A DNA stretch of 64,000 nt from Synechococcus sp. PROS-9-1 (lineage in GTDB: Bacteria; Cyanobacteriota; Cyanobacteriia; PCC-6307; Cyanobiaceae). The stretch spans positions 930,001 through 994,000 of the forward strand of contig NZ_CP047961.1 of NCBI RefSeq assembly GCF_014279775.1. The letters are read 5' to 3'. Positions 1,048 through 14,715 of the stretch are shown piece by piece (the stretch's first letter is position 1; every line of letters starts with the position of its first letter). Position numbers and translations under genes: made by a program. The notes below the pieces were generated by a model. The model had not been told where the DNA came from and did not search any database. It worked only from the letters and a program-made list of their open reading frames with translations.

Positions 1048-1286
1048 CGATCACTGGTAGGCGAAGTCTTTTAACGTCTTACTCAGGACGAATAGTTGTG
1101 GATCTTTTTGCAGGCGTCCACATTCCCGCGGGTTAGTGATCCCGAAACACGCCGTCTTTTATATGGGATGAGACGGACTAGCGAAAACCCGCTGCTCTTA
1201 TATGTAGGCTCGCAGCTGCCCTGACTCATTGGATCTGCGGGAGGTCAAGCCCTCGATGATTTATTAAGGCTCATCGGGAAGCCAAG
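1048..1286. other. Non-coding stretch with several hairpins
   Basis: No convincing gene is seen. Three inverted repeats are visible: CCGTCT/AGACGG (1152-1176), GCTGC/GCAGC (1191-1216) and a perfect CGATGA/TCATCG stem (1254-1276) whose loop contains TTATTAAGG. The last lies immediately after the 3' end of the tRNA-like sequence at 1287-1367. Palindrome copy C occupies 1061-1087. The region may be transcribed as structured RNA. Confidence 0.35.
1061..1087 (-). promoter_or_regulatory. Recurring intergenic palindrome, copy C
   Basis: Contains AAGTCTTTTAACGTC followed by CTCAGG on the plus strand; read on the minus strand the CCTGAG block precedes a TTAAAAGAC core, as in copies A and D. Pairing of its arms is weaker than in copies A and B. 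It sits just upstream of the gene starting at 1047. Confidence 0.35.
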
Positions 1287-1367
1287 TGGAGCAGGAGGGA
1301 ATCGAACCCTCTCAACTCTCGTGGCCGTCATGCGGAATTACGAAAGCTGCCTACCAAGTGCTGTCCC
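1287..1367 (-). tRNA. tRNA-like sequence 1, anticodon unresolved
   Basis: The minus strand has a canonical T-arm (GAGGG-TTCGATT-CCCTC), a 7-bp acceptor stem with one G-T pair and one A-C mismatch, a discriminator A and a D-loop-like TTGGTAGG. The length is 81 nt and CCA is not encoded. The anticodon arm is not canonical. One fold gives loop TTCCGCA (anticodon CCG, Arg) with an A-G mismatch and a 14-nt variable loop; another gives a 6-bp CTTTCG/CGAGAG stem with a large loop. It may be a divergent phage-type tRNA, a decayed tRNA or a mimic. Confidence 0.4.
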
Positions 1368-1890: not shown

Positions 1891-1959
1891 TGGAGGTGAC
1901 GGGAATCGAACCCGCTGGTTGTCGATGCCAAACCGCAACCCGTTACCAAAGCCACCCCC
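1891..1959 (-). tRNA. tRNA-like sequence 2, anticodon unresolved
   Basis: The minus strand has a full 7-bp acceptor stem (GGGGGTG with CACCTCC, one G-T pair), discriminator A and a T-arm GCGGG-TTCGATT-CCCGT. A D-loop-like TTTGGTAAC is present but the D-stem is weak. The central arm can pair GGTTG with CAACC, which leaves a 14-nt loop instead of the usual 7 nt. The total is only 69 nt and CCA is not encoded. The quality of the T-arm and acceptor argues for a functional tRNA-like RNA; the amino-acid identity cannot be read. Confidence 0.4.
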
Positions 1960-2098: not shown

Positions 2099-2127
2099 AT
2101 GGTACCAACTGGTTAGTACCTTGTCAA
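2099..2127 (-). promoter_or_regulatory. Promoter overlapped by a 20-bp near-palindromic operator
   Basis: Minus-strand TTGACA (2122-2127), a 17-base spacer and TACCAT (2099-2104) make a sigma70-like promoter. The spacer and part of the -10 are covered by GGTACCAACTGGTTAGTACC (2101-2120), a near-palindrome whose arms differ at only a few central positions. A protein bound here would block RNA polymerase. Half-sites recur at 2279-2288, 3578-3586 and 3628-3636. Confidence 0.5.
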
Positions 2128-2252
2128 CCCCTCCTGGAAAGTTAAAGCTGAACCAGACTTCGCGTCGGTGGCTTTGAACTCTCGTGGTGGAGAGGTCTTC
2201 GGTAGTAGAGGGGCGGTTGTTTGTCCGCCCTTGCTTCCGATGAATTAAGTAT

Positions 2253-2288
2253 GCCCCCTGATTACCTACCTGTCAACTGGTTAGTACC
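2253..2288 (-). promoter_or_regulatory. Second promoter with adjacent operator half-site
   Basis: Minus-strand TTGACA (2271-2276) is followed after 17 bases by CATACT (2248-2253), a weak -10 match. Directly upstream and touching the -35 lies GGTACTAACC (2279-2288), identical to one arm of the palindrome at 2101-2120. It lies downstream of the 265-codon gene and points toward the tRNA-like genes. Confidence 0.4.
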
Positions 2289-2315
2289 CAATTAACAGAA
2301 GATGAGTAGAAATAC

Positions 2316-3113
2316 TTAGAACTTCATCAGTCCACTCGTTGGCTTCACTGGTCTGATGTCCTGTGTTGCCTTGACCAGATCATTCCATCTCTCCATTCCT
2401 CCCTTGCCAGTAATGCCAGCTATGAGGTTGTCGAGGGTCATCAGTCCTTGAAGGGCTTTGCCATAGGGACCACCCACAGCTCCAACTGTTTGTCGGACTG
2501 CTTGGCCACCTAACCCTCTAAGTGCTGCCTTCGGATCGAACTGGATCTTCACCCCATCTGATCGTTGCCAGGTGGTAGGTCCAACCCTCTTCGCATCGAA
2601 GCCTCCCTTCCCGTTGTTAGCCAAGACACCATTGGTTGCCCTGTCGAAGAAGGTGCTCCTCCTGCCTTGCTGCCCATCTCCCGTGAAGAACTCACCAGTC
2701 ACATGGTCTCCGATCTTTACTTGATCAAGAGCTCCACCTACTGAGGCATTCATCCGTTGCTGAGCTAACCCCCTTTGCTGTGGGTTGAGGTTGTTAGGAA
2801 CTTGGAAGGGTGTTCCCCCTTTCCTTTGGTTGATGGTCCTATCCCATGCCATGTCATGAACCTTGACTCCATTGATCCCCTGCTTTGGATGCGGGGTGAC
2901 ATAGGACTCACTGCTCACAGCAGGTGACTGTCTATAGGTCGTGAACTTGGTACCCCTTGGGTTCCTGTTCTTATTGGTGACCTTTGGATTCGATTCACTT
3001 CTATGGGCTGCTAATGCCCTCTTATCTATCTGTTGCTTTGAGGTGGGCTGGATGGCTGTCTGTTGGAAGTTGCTCCATAGCCTCCGCTCCTCCTCCTTTG
3101 TTAATGGCTTCAT
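2316..3113 (-). CDS. Hypothetical protein, 265 aa
   Basis: The largest gene of the accessory block. The N-terminal third is basic and low-complexity (TNKNRNPRGTKFTTYRQ); a middle part (about residues 130-200) contains KIGDHVTGEFFTGDGQQGRRSTFFDRA, which resembles a beta-rich fold; the C-terminal third is glycine-rich (LRGLGGQAVRQTVGAVGGPYGKALQGL) and could insert in or traverse a membrane or serve in assembly. No cysteines and no catalytic motif are evident. A phage or satellite structural role is possible but is only inference. It is separated by 58 bases from the regulator gene upstream and probably cotranscribed with it. Confidence 0.6.
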   Translation of the reverse strand: MKPLTKEEERRLWSNFQQTAIQPTSKQQIDKRALAAHRSESNPKVTNKNRNPRGTKFTTYRQSPAVSSESYVTPHPKQGINGVKVHDMAWDRTINQRKGGTPFQVPNNLNPQQRGLAQQRMNASVGGALDQVKIGDHVTGEFFTGDGQQGRRSTFFDRATNGVLANNGKGGFDAKRVGPTTWQRSDGVKIQFDPKAALRGLGGQAVRQTVGAVGGPYGKALQGLMTLDNLIAGITGKGGMERWNDLVKATQDIRPVKPTSGLMKF

Positions 3114-3138
3114 CTAATAGTCAAGCTTGATGGTCTTA

Positions 3139-3150
3139 GGTCTTACAAGG
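3139..3150 (-). promoter_or_regulatory. Possible further copy of the intergenic motif
   Basis: Plus-strand GGTCTTACAAGG resembles the GGTCTTTTAAGG core of copy D and lies 26 bases before the start of the 265-codon gene. The match is short, so it may be chance. Confidence 0.2.
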
Positions 3151-3171
3151 CCGTCGCCTATGCCAAGTCCC

Positions 3172-3552
3172 TCAGCTCTTGACCTTCTCTAATAAGGAGA
3201 GCAGATCCTTGAGTTCGGTGATCCTTTCGGGTGTGAGGCTGTCTAGCCCTGCTCCGATGACCACCTCTCTCTCCTTCTCTGGAATGAGGTCTATATAAGG
3301 AGGGACTTCCCTCTCCTTCTTCTCTGCTCTTACCTGAGTCCTTGGGATGTAATCCCTGGTGTCCTCTCTTACTGGGACCTGAACCTCAGCATCATCGAGC
3401 TGGGCTCTGTACTTAGGAAGCTTGAGTGCTGTCTCTACTAGCTCAGCAGCCATAGCTGACATGGCCCTCTTGTTGTGTTTGGCCAGGGTTCTGACCATTG
3501 CGTACTCCTCTGGTTGGAGAAGTGTCTGAACTCGATCAAGGCTGGATGGCAT
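3172..3552 (-). CDS. Ribbon-helix-helix-type regulator candidate, 126 aa
   Basis: Residues 5-50 (SLDRVQTLLQPEEYAMVRTL... then AMSAMAAELVETALKLP) fit the short strand plus two helices of CopG/Arc-type ribbon-helix-helix DNA-binding proteins. The remainder is charged and helical, ending in a leucine-rich helix (TELKDLLSLLEKVKS) that could oligomerise. Such proteins typically bind inverted repeats and repress their own promoters. Several GGTTAGTAC half-sites lie 26-84 bases upstream of the start, and the best palindrome is at 2101-2120. It is therefore the obvious candidate for binding that motif (inference). The ribbon-helix-helix assignment is by eye and moderately sure. Confidence 0.6.
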   Translation of the reverse strand: MPSSLDRVQTLLQPEEYAMVRTLAKHNKRAMSAMAAELVETALKLPKYRAQLDDAEVQVPVREDTRDYIPRTQVRAEKKEREVPPYIDLIPEKEREVVIGAGLDSLTPERITELKDLLSLLEKVKS

Positions 3553-3577
3553 TGGTTGTTCTCTCGTGGATTAGGTG

Positions 3578-3636
3578 GGTACTAACGTGACTAACGGTTA
3601 TTGGCCTCATACTAGCTGCATGTAAAAGGTTAGTAC
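3578..3636 (-). promoter_or_regulatory. Cluster of GGTTAGTAC operator half-sites
   Basis: GGTACTAAC at 3578-3586, a partial ACTAAC repeat at 3590-3595 and GGTTAGTAC at 3628-3636 lie upstream of the regulator gene. A minus-strand TTTACA (3621-3626) could be a -35 element. The arrangement fits autoregulation. Confidence 0.4.
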
Positions 3637-3682
3637 TTTTATAGCTGTTGACAAGAGTAGATCCCTTGCTGTACCTGCGATC

Positions 3683-4006
3683 TCAGCGATCAGCGTTACT
3701 CTTCAGTCGTAAGGGGGAGAGTTTCTCCTTTTGCGTTGTTGTTTCAATTGGCCGTTGAGCTGCTTCGCGATTGAGTTCCCGCTCCAAGGCGGCAATCCTT
3801 CTCTCTCTAAGGCAGTGCCGACAGCCTCCTGTGGTTTGGAGATGCTTTTCAGGCGTGATGCTGATCAGTTGGACCGGATGCTTGTTGCAACGAATTTTGA
3901 CCGGGCTCTTGTAGCTGCGGTATTTAATCTCTGAGTAATCGAAGTGATCACCAAAGCGCTTACGCGCTCGTTTGAGAAATTCCGATTCCGTGATGCGAGC
4001 TGCCAT
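3683..4006 (-). CDS. DUF723-type zinc-binding protein, 107 aa
   Basis: The N-terminal 70 residues follow the pattern FLKRARKRFGDHFDYSEIKY, then VKIRCNKHP, then HLQTTGGCRHC, which matches the DUF723 repeat found in phage and mobile-element proteins, often next to nuclease domains. Cysteines at C39, C62 and C65 and the nearby histidines could bind zinc. No nuclease domain follows: the C-terminus is a short basic helix. The start at 4006 is back-to-back with the AlkB gene. Its presence supports a mobile origin for the block. Its function is unknown. Confidence 0.6.
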   Translation of the reverse strand: MAARITESEFLKRARKRFGDHFDYSEIKYRSYKSPVKIRCNKHPVQLISITPEKHLQTTGGCRHCLRERRIAALERELNREAAQRPIETTTQKEKLSPLRLKSNADR

Positions 4007-9080: not shown

Positions 9081-10129
9081 TGGAATGGGGGTGAGGTCAG
9101 TACGCCTCCATTGCTGTACAGATTATTGAGGCCCCTTGGAATTGGAACGGCACTCTCCGGGCCGAGATGTCGATTATAGATTTCACCGTAATTACCTACT
9201 GCTTGAATCACTTGGACAATGAAATCGTTGTTTAAACCTAATTTTTGACCTAAATCACCATCTACCCCAAGAAAACGCCTCAGCTGTGTGAGTTCAGGTC
9301 GACGTTGGGCTTCCTCCAGCTTGTTTCCGATGTTTTCTTGTGTAATGCCTAATTCTTCTGCAGCGATCAACGCATAGATCACCCAGCGCATGGCGTCCGT
9401 TAGGCGCTGATCACCACCTGCTGACAGTGGAGCAAGGGGCTCTTTGCTCAAGACTTCAGGGAGAATCACGTGTTGCTCTGGATTGTTAAAACCCGATCTG
9501 GCCGCGGCGAGCTGAGAGCGATCCGATGTCATGGCGCTGCAGCGACCTTGAAGGTAGCCAGCGATGACTTGATTGAGATCCTGATACTTAATTGGTTTGT
9601 AGTCGATCCCTTTTGCCTGAAAGGCATCGTTGAGGTTTTGCTCCGTCGTGGTGCCTGAGCCCACGCAGATGGTTTTGCCCTTGAGGTTGTTGAGATTGGA
9701 GATCCCACTGCTGCGCTTGACCAAGAGACCTTGTCCGTCATGAAAGACCACAGGAGCGAAGCTGACGCCATTGCCTCCCGCGGCATCTCTGCTGAGGTTG
9801 AACGTGGTGTTGCGCGATAGGAGATCAATCTCTCCGGTACGTAGTGCTGTGAAACGTTCTGGAGCGGTTAGGGACCTGTATTGCACTTGATCTGGGCTGC
9901 CATTAATTGCTGCAGCAAAGGCTCGACAGATGTCCACATCAAGTCCAGCGAAGGATCCATCCCTTTGCAGAAAACTAAAACCTGGAATCTTGCCGCTGAC
10001 TCCGCAGCGAAGCTCGGTTCTCCGTTTAATGAGATCGAGTCTTGAGGCTCCACCTTCGCCAAGCGTGGCACACCCATTCAAAATGAATAGGAAAGAAACC
10101 AGTGGCAGTGCAAGAAGACGGACTCTCAT
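9077..10129 (-). CDS. Amino-acid ABC transporter substrate-binding lipoprotein
   Basis: A periplasmic solute-binding protein of family 3 (AapJ/NatF-like). The start at 10129 gives MRVRLLALPLVSFLFILNGC, a lipoprotein signal with cysteine at the lipobox. The mature part has ELRCGVSGKIPGFSF, FAGLDVDICRAFAAAI and RFTALRTGEIDLLSRNTTFNLSRD, typical of the general L-amino-acid branch. First gene of the operon with two permeases, an HdeD-like gene and the ATPase. Confidence 0.85.
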   Translation of the reverse strand: MRVRLLALPLVSFLFILNGCATLGEGGASRLDLIKRRTELRCGVSGKIPGFSFLQRDGSFAGLDVDICRAFAAAINGSPDQVQYRSLTAPERFTALRTGEIDLLSRNTTFNLSRDAAGGNGVSFAPVVFHDGQGLLVKRSSGISNLNNLKGKTICVGSGTTTEQNLNDAFQAKGIDYKPIKYQDLNQVIAGYLQGRCSAMTSDRSQLAAARSGFNNPEQHVILPEVLSKEPLAPLSAGGDQRLTDAMRWVIYALIAAEELGITQENIGNKLEEAQRRPELTQLRRFLGVDGDLGQKLGLNNDFIVQVIQAVGNYGEIYNRHLGPESAVPIPRGLNNLYSNGGVLTSPPFQ

Positions 10130-13611: not shown

Positions 13612-14715
13612 GTGAGTTCAGATCCGAGAGCGTCGCAACCATCGCCCTATGGGATTTTAATTTGTGGCCATGGCAGCAGGAATCGCTTAGCGGTTGAGGA
13701 ATTTGAACGTCTCGCGATCGGTCTGCGCCGGCGTATGAGTCCTATTCCTGTTGAACACGGGTTTTTGGAATTTGCCAAACCAATCCTTAGGGATGGTTTG
13801 GATCGCTTAAGAGAGCAAGGGGTGGAGCGGGTGCTGGCGATTCCAGCCATGTTGTTTGCGGCAGGCCATGCCAAAAATGACATCCCGTCCGTGCTGAACA
13901 CCTACAGCGCTGAAACCGGTTTGGAGATCGATTACGGCCGAGAACTCGGAGTTGATCGATTAATGATTGCAGCGGCAGGCGCTCGGATTCAAGAGGCCTT
14001 GGACGCCAATTCAGAGGTTCCTTTATCTGAAACCATGTTGGTGGTTGTTGGACGGGGGTCATCGGATCCCGATGCCAATTCCAACGTCGCGAAGGTTGCC
14101 CGAATGTTGGTGGAAGGTTTTGGCTTCGGCTGGGGCGAAACCGTGTATTCCGGCGTCACGTTCCCGCTGGTGGAGCCAGGGCTGCGGCATGTGGTGCGCC
14201 TTGGTTTTAAGCGCATCATCGTGTTCCCCTATTTCCTGTTTTCTGGTGTTCTTGTGACCAGGATCCGCCAGCACAGTGAACGGGTCGCCAACGATCACCC
14301 CGAAGTTGAATTTCTGCATGCCTCCTATCTCGGAGACCACGCAAGGGTTCAAGACACGTTTGTAGAGCGGGTGGATGAAGTGCTGGGTGGTGAGACAGCG
14401 ATGAATTGTTCGCTCTGTAAATACAGAGCACAGGTGCTGGGTTTTGAAACTGAGGTAGGCCTAGCCCAGGCCAGTCACCATCACCATGTGGAGGGTTTGA
14501 CCGATGGCTGCGATCTGTGTGAGCTCGAATGCACCGGGGCCTGTCAGCCCGATGGTGTACCCATTCCACTGGGGGGTGGGCATGAGCCTCACACGCATGG
14601 AGATCATGCCCATGACCATGGGCATCACCCCTACCCGCATGCAGAGCATCCTTTAGGTCCCAGCACCCTTCGTGGTCGCAGTGCGGATTCGAAGACGGAT
14701 GGCCCTGAACCCTGA
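13612..14715 (+). CDS. cbiX: Sirohydrochlorin cobaltochelatase-like protein with His-rich tail
   Basis: Inserts a divalent metal into sirohydrochlorin, probably cobalt for cobalamin synthesis. Two chelatase repeats are seen (GILICGHGSRNRLAVEEFERLA and VVVGRGSSDPDANSNVAKVARM), with metal-binding histidines in HGS and AGHAKND. The C-terminal 110 residues add CSLCKYRAQ, CDLCELECTGAC and a run of about ten histidines in HEPHTHGDHAHDHGHHPYPHAEH, likely a metal store or delivery arm. The GTG start is at 13612. B12 supply fits the class II ribonucleotide reductase gene elsewhere in the window. Confidence 0.8.
   Translation: MSSDPRASQPSPYGILICGHGSRNRLAVEEFERLAIGLRRRMSPIPVEHGFLEFAKPILRDGLDRLREQGVERVLAIPAMLFAAGHAKNDIPSVLNTYSAETGLEIDYGRELGVDRLMIAAAGARIQEALDANSEVPLSETMLVVVGRGSSDPDANSNVAKVARMLVEGFGFGWGETVYSGVTFPLVEPGLRHVVRLGFKRIIVFPYFLFSGVLVTRIRQHSERVANDHPEVEFLHASYLGDHARVQDTFVERVDEVLGGETAMNCSLCKYRAQVLGFETEVGLAQASHHHHVEGLTDGCDLCELECTGACQPDGVPIPLGGGHEPHTHGDHAHDHGHHPYPHAEHPLGPSTLRGRSADSKTDGPEP

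Follow-up and report, generated by a model that had tools for sequence, protein, structure and literature searches.

The window analysed here is a 64,000-nucleotide stretch of the chromosome of Synechococcus sp. PROS-9-1 (G000:C1:930001-994000), whose genome is one contig of 2,273,940 bases (2.27 Mb). Its left end lies in an integrated mobile element that carries a set of operator-like sites built on the word GGTACYAAC, found both at promoters and upstream of a gene for a candidate ribbon-helix-helix (RHH) protein. We infer from sequence that this RHH protein of the element is the binder of the GTACYAAC sites, and we consider it probable that the sites are operators of an autoregulated RHH repressor which silences the early promoters of the element. 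Such a repressor had been proposed in the first-pass annotation of this DNA; its operator-like placement and the sites upstream of the RHH gene hold up, while the binder, repression and the transcription starts are presumptive. Coordinates of all features are collected in Table 1.

The half-sites GGTACCAAC (2101-2109) and GTTAGTACC (2112-2120) together form a 20-bp near-palindrome, the pattern of which has one exact place in the genome. With up to three mismatches allowed, a single other genomic place could be identified, carrying three mismatches and lying 118 kb away, compared with three places for the reversed control pattern. A palindrome search of IMG/VR found none. Half-site matches with at most one mismatch number 24 in the window versus 9.98 expected, a count reached by 0 of 100 shuffles. 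Genome-wide, exact GGTACYAAC occurs 14 times versus 68 times for the reversed control word, and six of the 14 fall within 5.1 kb (genome 928519-933586), the density outside predicting 0.06 per 17 kb (Poisson P ~6e-11). A genome-wide scan for clustering in the island had been suggested by the first-pass annotation; the words do gather there and are not frequent at chance positions. The remaining eight exact sites lie outside the element and are scattered across the genome, which argues against a host regulon. The operator-like layout described earlier, with placement at promoters, island clustering and sites upstream of the RHH gene, is found again in a larger set than first stated: two additional exact sites, at genome 929632 and 928519, are located immediately outside the left edge of the window, the former inside a third promoter. 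All eight GTACYAAC sites of the element are noncoding, with 26% of the element being noncoding (4423 of 16794 bases, 20 open reading frames (ORFs) taken as genes by our own reading; P ~2e-5). One-mismatch words within ORFs (632, 2946) were excluded from this site count.

The sites coincide with the best predicted promoters. As the earlier annotation described, the near-palindrome covers the spacer and part of the -10 hexamer of a minus-strand TTGACA-17-TACCAT promoter (P2). The half-site said to touch the -35 hexamer of the second promoter (P1) actually lies 3 bp upstream of it, and of the two half-sites reported upstream of the RHH gene one is exact (3578-3586) and the other has one mismatch (3629-3637). 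Promoters alone are not above chance, as two promoter-like sites were found in the 4200 bases scanned versus a shuffle mean of 3.4. Yet the only three coding-strand sigma70-type promoters of the element matching 10 of 12 consensus positions (P1, P2 and the third promoter) are all within 5 bp of a GTACYAAC site. Three random noncoding promoters match such placement in 0.04% of draws, a figure that overstates independence and so speaks less strongly for operators than it seems to, since P1 and P2 are neighbours and the three promoters are not three independent cases. One further coding-strand promoter-like site, matching 9 of 12 positions, is located inside the integrase gene and has no half-site.

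P1 and P2 also have a longer stretch in common around the site, and two neighbouring genes (genome ~928.5 and ~928.3 kb) resemble each other in their upstream sequences. One of the two promoters may be a copy of the other, and the word could then be shared by descent or composition and have no regulatory meaning. We regard this as highly improbable given the depletion of the word in the genome, the exclusively noncoding position of the eight sites and the fact that all three best promoters are hit.

The element is about 16.8 kb in size (genome 916919-933712) and is inserted at the 3' end of metA. It encodes a tyrosine integrase (PHROG E 2.2e-50) and is bounded by a 12-bp attachment repeat, whose two copies taken alone match modestly (blastn E 0.04 for the stretches compared). 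In four of the six AlkB loci examined (G005, G007, G013, G014), the metA end adjoins the right flank with 0-90 bp between them at 88-93% identity, and the element is called integrated because the site is empty in these four congeners. The other two AlkB loci (G017, G001) yielded no metA match within the stretch examined. The sites thus belong to an integrated mobile element with an integrase, attachment repeats and an empty site in relatives. All of its listed ORFs are on the minus strand, and it further encodes a T7-type RNA polymerase of 1087 amino acids (PHROG E 2.5e-118, Pfam RNA_pol E 1.5e-30). A complete T7-like prophage is not supported, as no terminase large subunit, capsid, DNA polymerase or structural genes were recognised when 21 proteins were compared with PHROGs, including one (3683-4006) that is mostly outside the element. 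An HNH protein hits a family annotated as terminase small subunit (E 2.8e-4), with stronger HNH families ranking first.

The presence of this polymerase raises the alternative that this T7-type enzyme recognises GGGTACTAACC as the core of its promoters, which we judge quite unlikely. Six of the eight GTACYAAC sites are oriented with the genes, and in related elements genes are immediately preceded by different directional repeats (CTCACCCCTT in G011, GGGTTGCAC in G274), some of which resemble the T7 and T3 promoter cores. However, both orientations occur and a full palindrome exists, only about 9-11 bp are common to the sites with nothing conserved downstream where the start would be, the register to the -35 and -10 hexamers varies, and no site is located downstream of the polymerase gene.

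The candidate repressor is encoded by the last gene of the element before attR. Among PHROG families, the protein is closest to an Arc-like repressor (E 0.0035, residues 10-42), followed by a partition-protein family at E 0.027, and no PDB sequence match was obtained up to E 1. In a single-chain structure model, helices are predicted at residues 14-27 and 31-43 (blocks with a predicted local distance difference test score (pLDDT) of ~79-86), preceded by a short helix instead of a strand. Foldseek returned Arc chains at E above 1 (33 columns, root-mean-square deviation 1.4-1.8), with AvtR and MatP also among the weak matches. Relatives of the ribbon domain were found in 7 other genomes of 400 searched, the best being in G274 (74% identity over 43 amino acids), and in 8 IMG/VR loci. 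Matches also lie in G310, G359, G384 and G387, and for the G384 and G387 regions the analysis covered GTAC-type words and the commonest 10-mers. Used as a lone query, the window protein has no relative in IMG/VR nor in 50,697 phage records, and two relatives used as queries also found none in the phage records. Two T7-like, integrase-bearing phage contigs were examined with PHROGs (L088, L093); in both, terminase and polymerase genes flank the RHH gene and an integrase gene comes after it, and L088 also carries primase/helicase and DNA polymerase genes. L093 and G312:C12 have the same upstream sequence. A second, distant RHH gene is located on the same chromosome (G000:C1:1962369-1962488) and matches the RHH alignment at E 3.2e-5.

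Comparison of the regions upstream of RHH genes is suggestive of a link between this family and the half-site, though it falls short of proof. Among six IMG/VR RHH loci tested for dyads, with L094 and L095 left out, four (L089, L090, L092, L093) have their best dyads no more than about 60 bp ahead of the start, with right arms of the GTGTGTA type; L088 and L091 each show a near-palindrome by eye, but it does not rank among the best-scoring dyads. When a motif sampler was given six RHH upstream regions (window, L010, G274, L088, L091, L093), it chose GTTAGTACC in the window and aligned it with GTGTGTACC-type words, GGTTGCACC and others; when shuffled sets were given the same number of restarts, 1 of 60 reached this score. 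L089, L090 and L092 were left out of the upstream comparisons as near-copies, and the G011 RHH region (L042:18491) was first left out without such a reason. The sites could instead be true operators of another regulator, either a different element protein or a host factor. We hold this to be unlikely, with several early genes of the element lacking a known family and the RHH-site link being comparative and statistically weak, set against the sites upstream of the RHH gene itself and the dyads at the same place in several relatives.

A number of observations weigh against the RHH protein as repressor of these promoters. Its family assignment is below the Pfam cut-off (RHH_5 E 0.029, 14.5 bits versus 26), its structure model is modest (pLDDT 67), and no Foldseek fold match was obtained below E 0.001. 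When the G011 RHH region was added to the sampler, the window half-site was still chosen and 5 of 60 shuffled sets reached the score. Direct similarity of the half-site to the upstream regions of five relatives is weak, being equalled in 287 of 2000 shuffles and by 74 of 2000 permuted 9-mers. Of the 142 9-mers in front of the RHH gene, three do better than the half-site, one of them overlapping it, and six, the half-site included, share the next rank. GTACYAAC is absent from the elements with the nearest polymerases (G312:C48, G011). No promoter matching at least 9 of 12 positions lies upstream of the RHH gene itself, where TATAAA precedes the upstream site, and the genome 928519 and 926337 sites lack one as well.

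We hypothesize that the RHH repressor of this phage-derived element would bind the full palindrome at 2101-2120 and single or paired half-sites elsewhere. Bound repressor would block the host polymerase at the early promoters P1, P2 and genome 929654-929625, and would lower its own synthesis via the sites upstream of its gene. The operon under the control of P1 and P2 would include a structured RNA, two tRNA-like RNAs and a 144-amino-acid gene, and the early genes, hence the programme of the T7-type RNA polymerase, would be kept quiet. Repression, an inducing signal and an effect on excision are presumed parts of this scheme.

Both tRNA-like RNAs that the first-pass annotation placed in the proposed regulon are indeed downstream of P1 and P2. 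The region between the two promoters is predicted to form a stable structure (-45 kcal/mol, z -4.28, 0 of 200 shuffles; z -5.23 for 2095-2243, operator included) and has no Rfam match up to E 5. tRNA-like RNA 2 scores 24.3 bits (E 0.13) with the tRNA-Sec model and tRNA-like RNA 1 scores 27 bits (E 3.4e-8) with the transfer-messenger RNA (tmRNA) model, both below the gathering threshold of 47; neither fold is unusually stable (z -1.59 and -0.67, respectively) and ARAGORN finds neither RNA. Both resemble the tRNA portion of tmRNA. The element itself contains a second, diverged permuted tmRNA (genome 926930-927148, minus strand; L005:16930-17148), scoring 61.6 bits with tmRNA_permuted, over the gathering threshold of 47, and 65.9 bits with cyano_tmRNA, below the threshold of 70; the host's own tmRNA (genome 1907171-1907458) scores 311 bits. 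The tag of the element tmRNA reads ANNIKRTERTLAIAA by eye, and its acceptor is identical to that of tRNA-like RNA 2. ARAGORN and Rfam detect no tRNA or tmRNA in the stretches from G312:C48 and G011. The former contains a T-arm-like hairpin (L045 ~9995-10015, minus strand; fold z -1.76) that may be a relative of the tRNA-like RNAs.

Table 1 Features of the integrated element and its predicted control region (window positions unless marked as genome).
Feature	Position	Strand	Remarks
Near-palindrome, 20 bp, GGTACCAACTGGTTAGTACC	2101..2120	none	single place in genome
Exact half-site GGTACTAAC	2280..2288	minus	3 bp upstream of P1 -35
Exact half-site GGTACTAAC	3578..3586	plus	26-34 bp upstream of RHH start codon
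Half-site AGTACTAAC, 1 mismatch	3629..3637	minus	directly after TATAAA, upstream of RHH gene
Predicted promoter P2, TTGACA-17-TACCAT	2099..2127 (2127-2099)	minus	10/12, TG before -10, overlapped by palindrome
Predicted promoter P1, TTGACA-17-CATACT	2248..2276 (2276-2248)	minus	10/12
Predicted third promoter, TAGACA-18-TATTAT	genome 929654-929625		10/12, site within spacer
Candidate RHH protein gene, 126 aa	3172..3552	minus	last gene of element before attR; proposed autorepressor
ORF, 265 aa	2316..3113	minus	directly downstream of RHH gene; no family over threshold
Predicted structured RNA, 114 nt	2128..2241	minus	downstream of P1, between P1 and P2
tRNA-like RNA 2	1892..1959	minus	by eye: 7-bp acceptor with G3-U70 pair, canonical T-arm, no ordinary D-stem
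ORF, 144 aa	1406..1840	minus	flanked by tRNA-like RNAs 1 and 2; no family over threshold
tRNA-like RNA 1	1284..1367	minus	by eye: G3-U70 acceptor with one mismatch, canonical T-arm, no ordinary D-stem, long stem replacing anticodon arm
attR copy of 12-bp repeat CTTCAGTCGTAA	3701..3712	plus
attL copy of 12-bp repeat CTTCAGTCGTAA	genome 916919-916930		3' end of metA-like gene

Related elements were identified via the polymerase, some match to which is present in 23 of 300 genomes of the family, the window's own included, most of them distant. The element in G312:C48 encodes a polymerase that is 53% identical, an integrase, the C-terminus of an RHH protein and five further matching proteins, while the G011 element has a 42% identical polymerase, an RHH protein and three further matching proteins. 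A polymerase scan of GTDB contigs returned one locus, and an IMG/VR scan returned 20 loci at 22-26% identity, which were not used. A protein of 250-270 amino acids without known family is encoded downstream of the polymerase gene (L005:8340-9098) and has matches in G312:C48 (L045) and G011 (L043) at E 8e-9 and 4e-8; a similarly placed G274 protein aligns to it at 23% and is not detected at E 1e-3. In the G011 element (L042/L043), the directional repeat ending CTCACCCCTT is found just upstream of several genes and may serve as a promoter for the T7-type polymerase encoded there. Polymerase genes of this kind also occur as fragments with internal stops in L047 (G019) and L048 (G307), so such elements appear to decay. 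On the coding strand of the G274 element GGGTTGCAC occurs six times, and one copy falls within the spacer of the sole promoter-like site matching at least 9 of 12 positions in the 20 kb read. The RHH gene of this element (L084) is accompanied by a divergent gene (14236-14619) that is RHH-like by eye, and GGGTTGCAC is repeated between and downstream of the two. This gene pair with its GGGTTGCAC words looks like the layout of a two-regulator switch.

Arc/Mnt-type repressors are phage-borne RHH repressors that act at an early promoter. The window protein is similar in that its best PHROG match is an Arc-like repressor and Arc is among its weak fold matches, and differs in having no significant PDB sequence or fold match, a different operator and a location in an element with a T7-type polymerase. 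Phage satellites and tycheposons are likewise small integrated elements with an integrase and without recognised capsid genes, whereas the present element carries its own T7-type RNA polymerase. An uncultured marine cyanophage lineage with lysogenic potential, with a 'relic' prophage in marine Synechococcus, has reportedly been described (Flores-Uribe 2019, going by its title; cited in PMC8776855) and may or may not be related to the present element. The T7-type polymerase and tyrosine integrase are shared with T7-like marine cyanophages, and RHH relatives occur in the two uncultured phage contigs of such make-up. The published account of integrase-bearing T7-like marine cyanophages identified no repressor homologue, judged integration transient and found no stable lysogens (PMC8776855). 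In contrast, the present element is found integrated, at metA instead of tRNA-Leu, and no structural or replication genes were recognised in it.

The system nearest in manner is TrcR of Anabaena sp. PCC 7120, described as an autoregulated RHH repressor that uses short sites at or near -10 boxes and represses a tRNA operon (PMC10272220). The first-pass annotation knew of no described system with these parts; TrcR comes close, though no homology to the window RHH protein was found. The TrcR footprint is given as 28-53 bp upstream of its own start codon, and its tRNA-operon site TGTAGTAT has TAGTA in common with GTTAGTACC of the window (PMC10272220). The two differ in that TrcR is a host regulator of translation genes, whereas here the sites are carried by an integrated element and the RNAs are not tRNAs but resemble them. 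The window RHH protein was rejected as a TrcR orthologue: in a blastp comparison with 12 ORFs behind the TrcR operator, from the first 12 of 75 operator places listed and with 10 of the 12 ORFs being TrcR-like (109-112 amino acids), the best match was E 0.033, to an unrelated 299-amino-acid ORF, and E 0.74 to the best TrcR-like protein. The TrcR operator ATACTACACTTGTATTAC is absent from the PROS-9-1 genome within one mismatch. No description of an RHH-operator-tRNA-like-RNA system was found in the titles and abstract starts of the open-licence PMC papers that our searches returned.

T7-like cyanophages of marine picocyanobacteria often carry integrases (PMC8776855). A tentative and, on present evidence, doubtful extension of our reading is that the RHH family may be the missing repressor of the integrase-bearing T7-like cyanophage lineage and the elements derived from it. 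In this element, the repressor might also silence noncoding RNAs that imitate the tRNA part of tmRNA, with alanine-type acceptors and no normal D-arm, and these, together with the element tmRNA, would interfere with ribosome rescue once the element becomes active. With a repressor candidate and its predicted operators available in an integrated element that encodes a T7-type polymerase, repression can be tested directly in elements related to T7-like cyanophages. If true, a repressor over tRNA-like RNAs would be a new way for mobile DNA to act on host translation.
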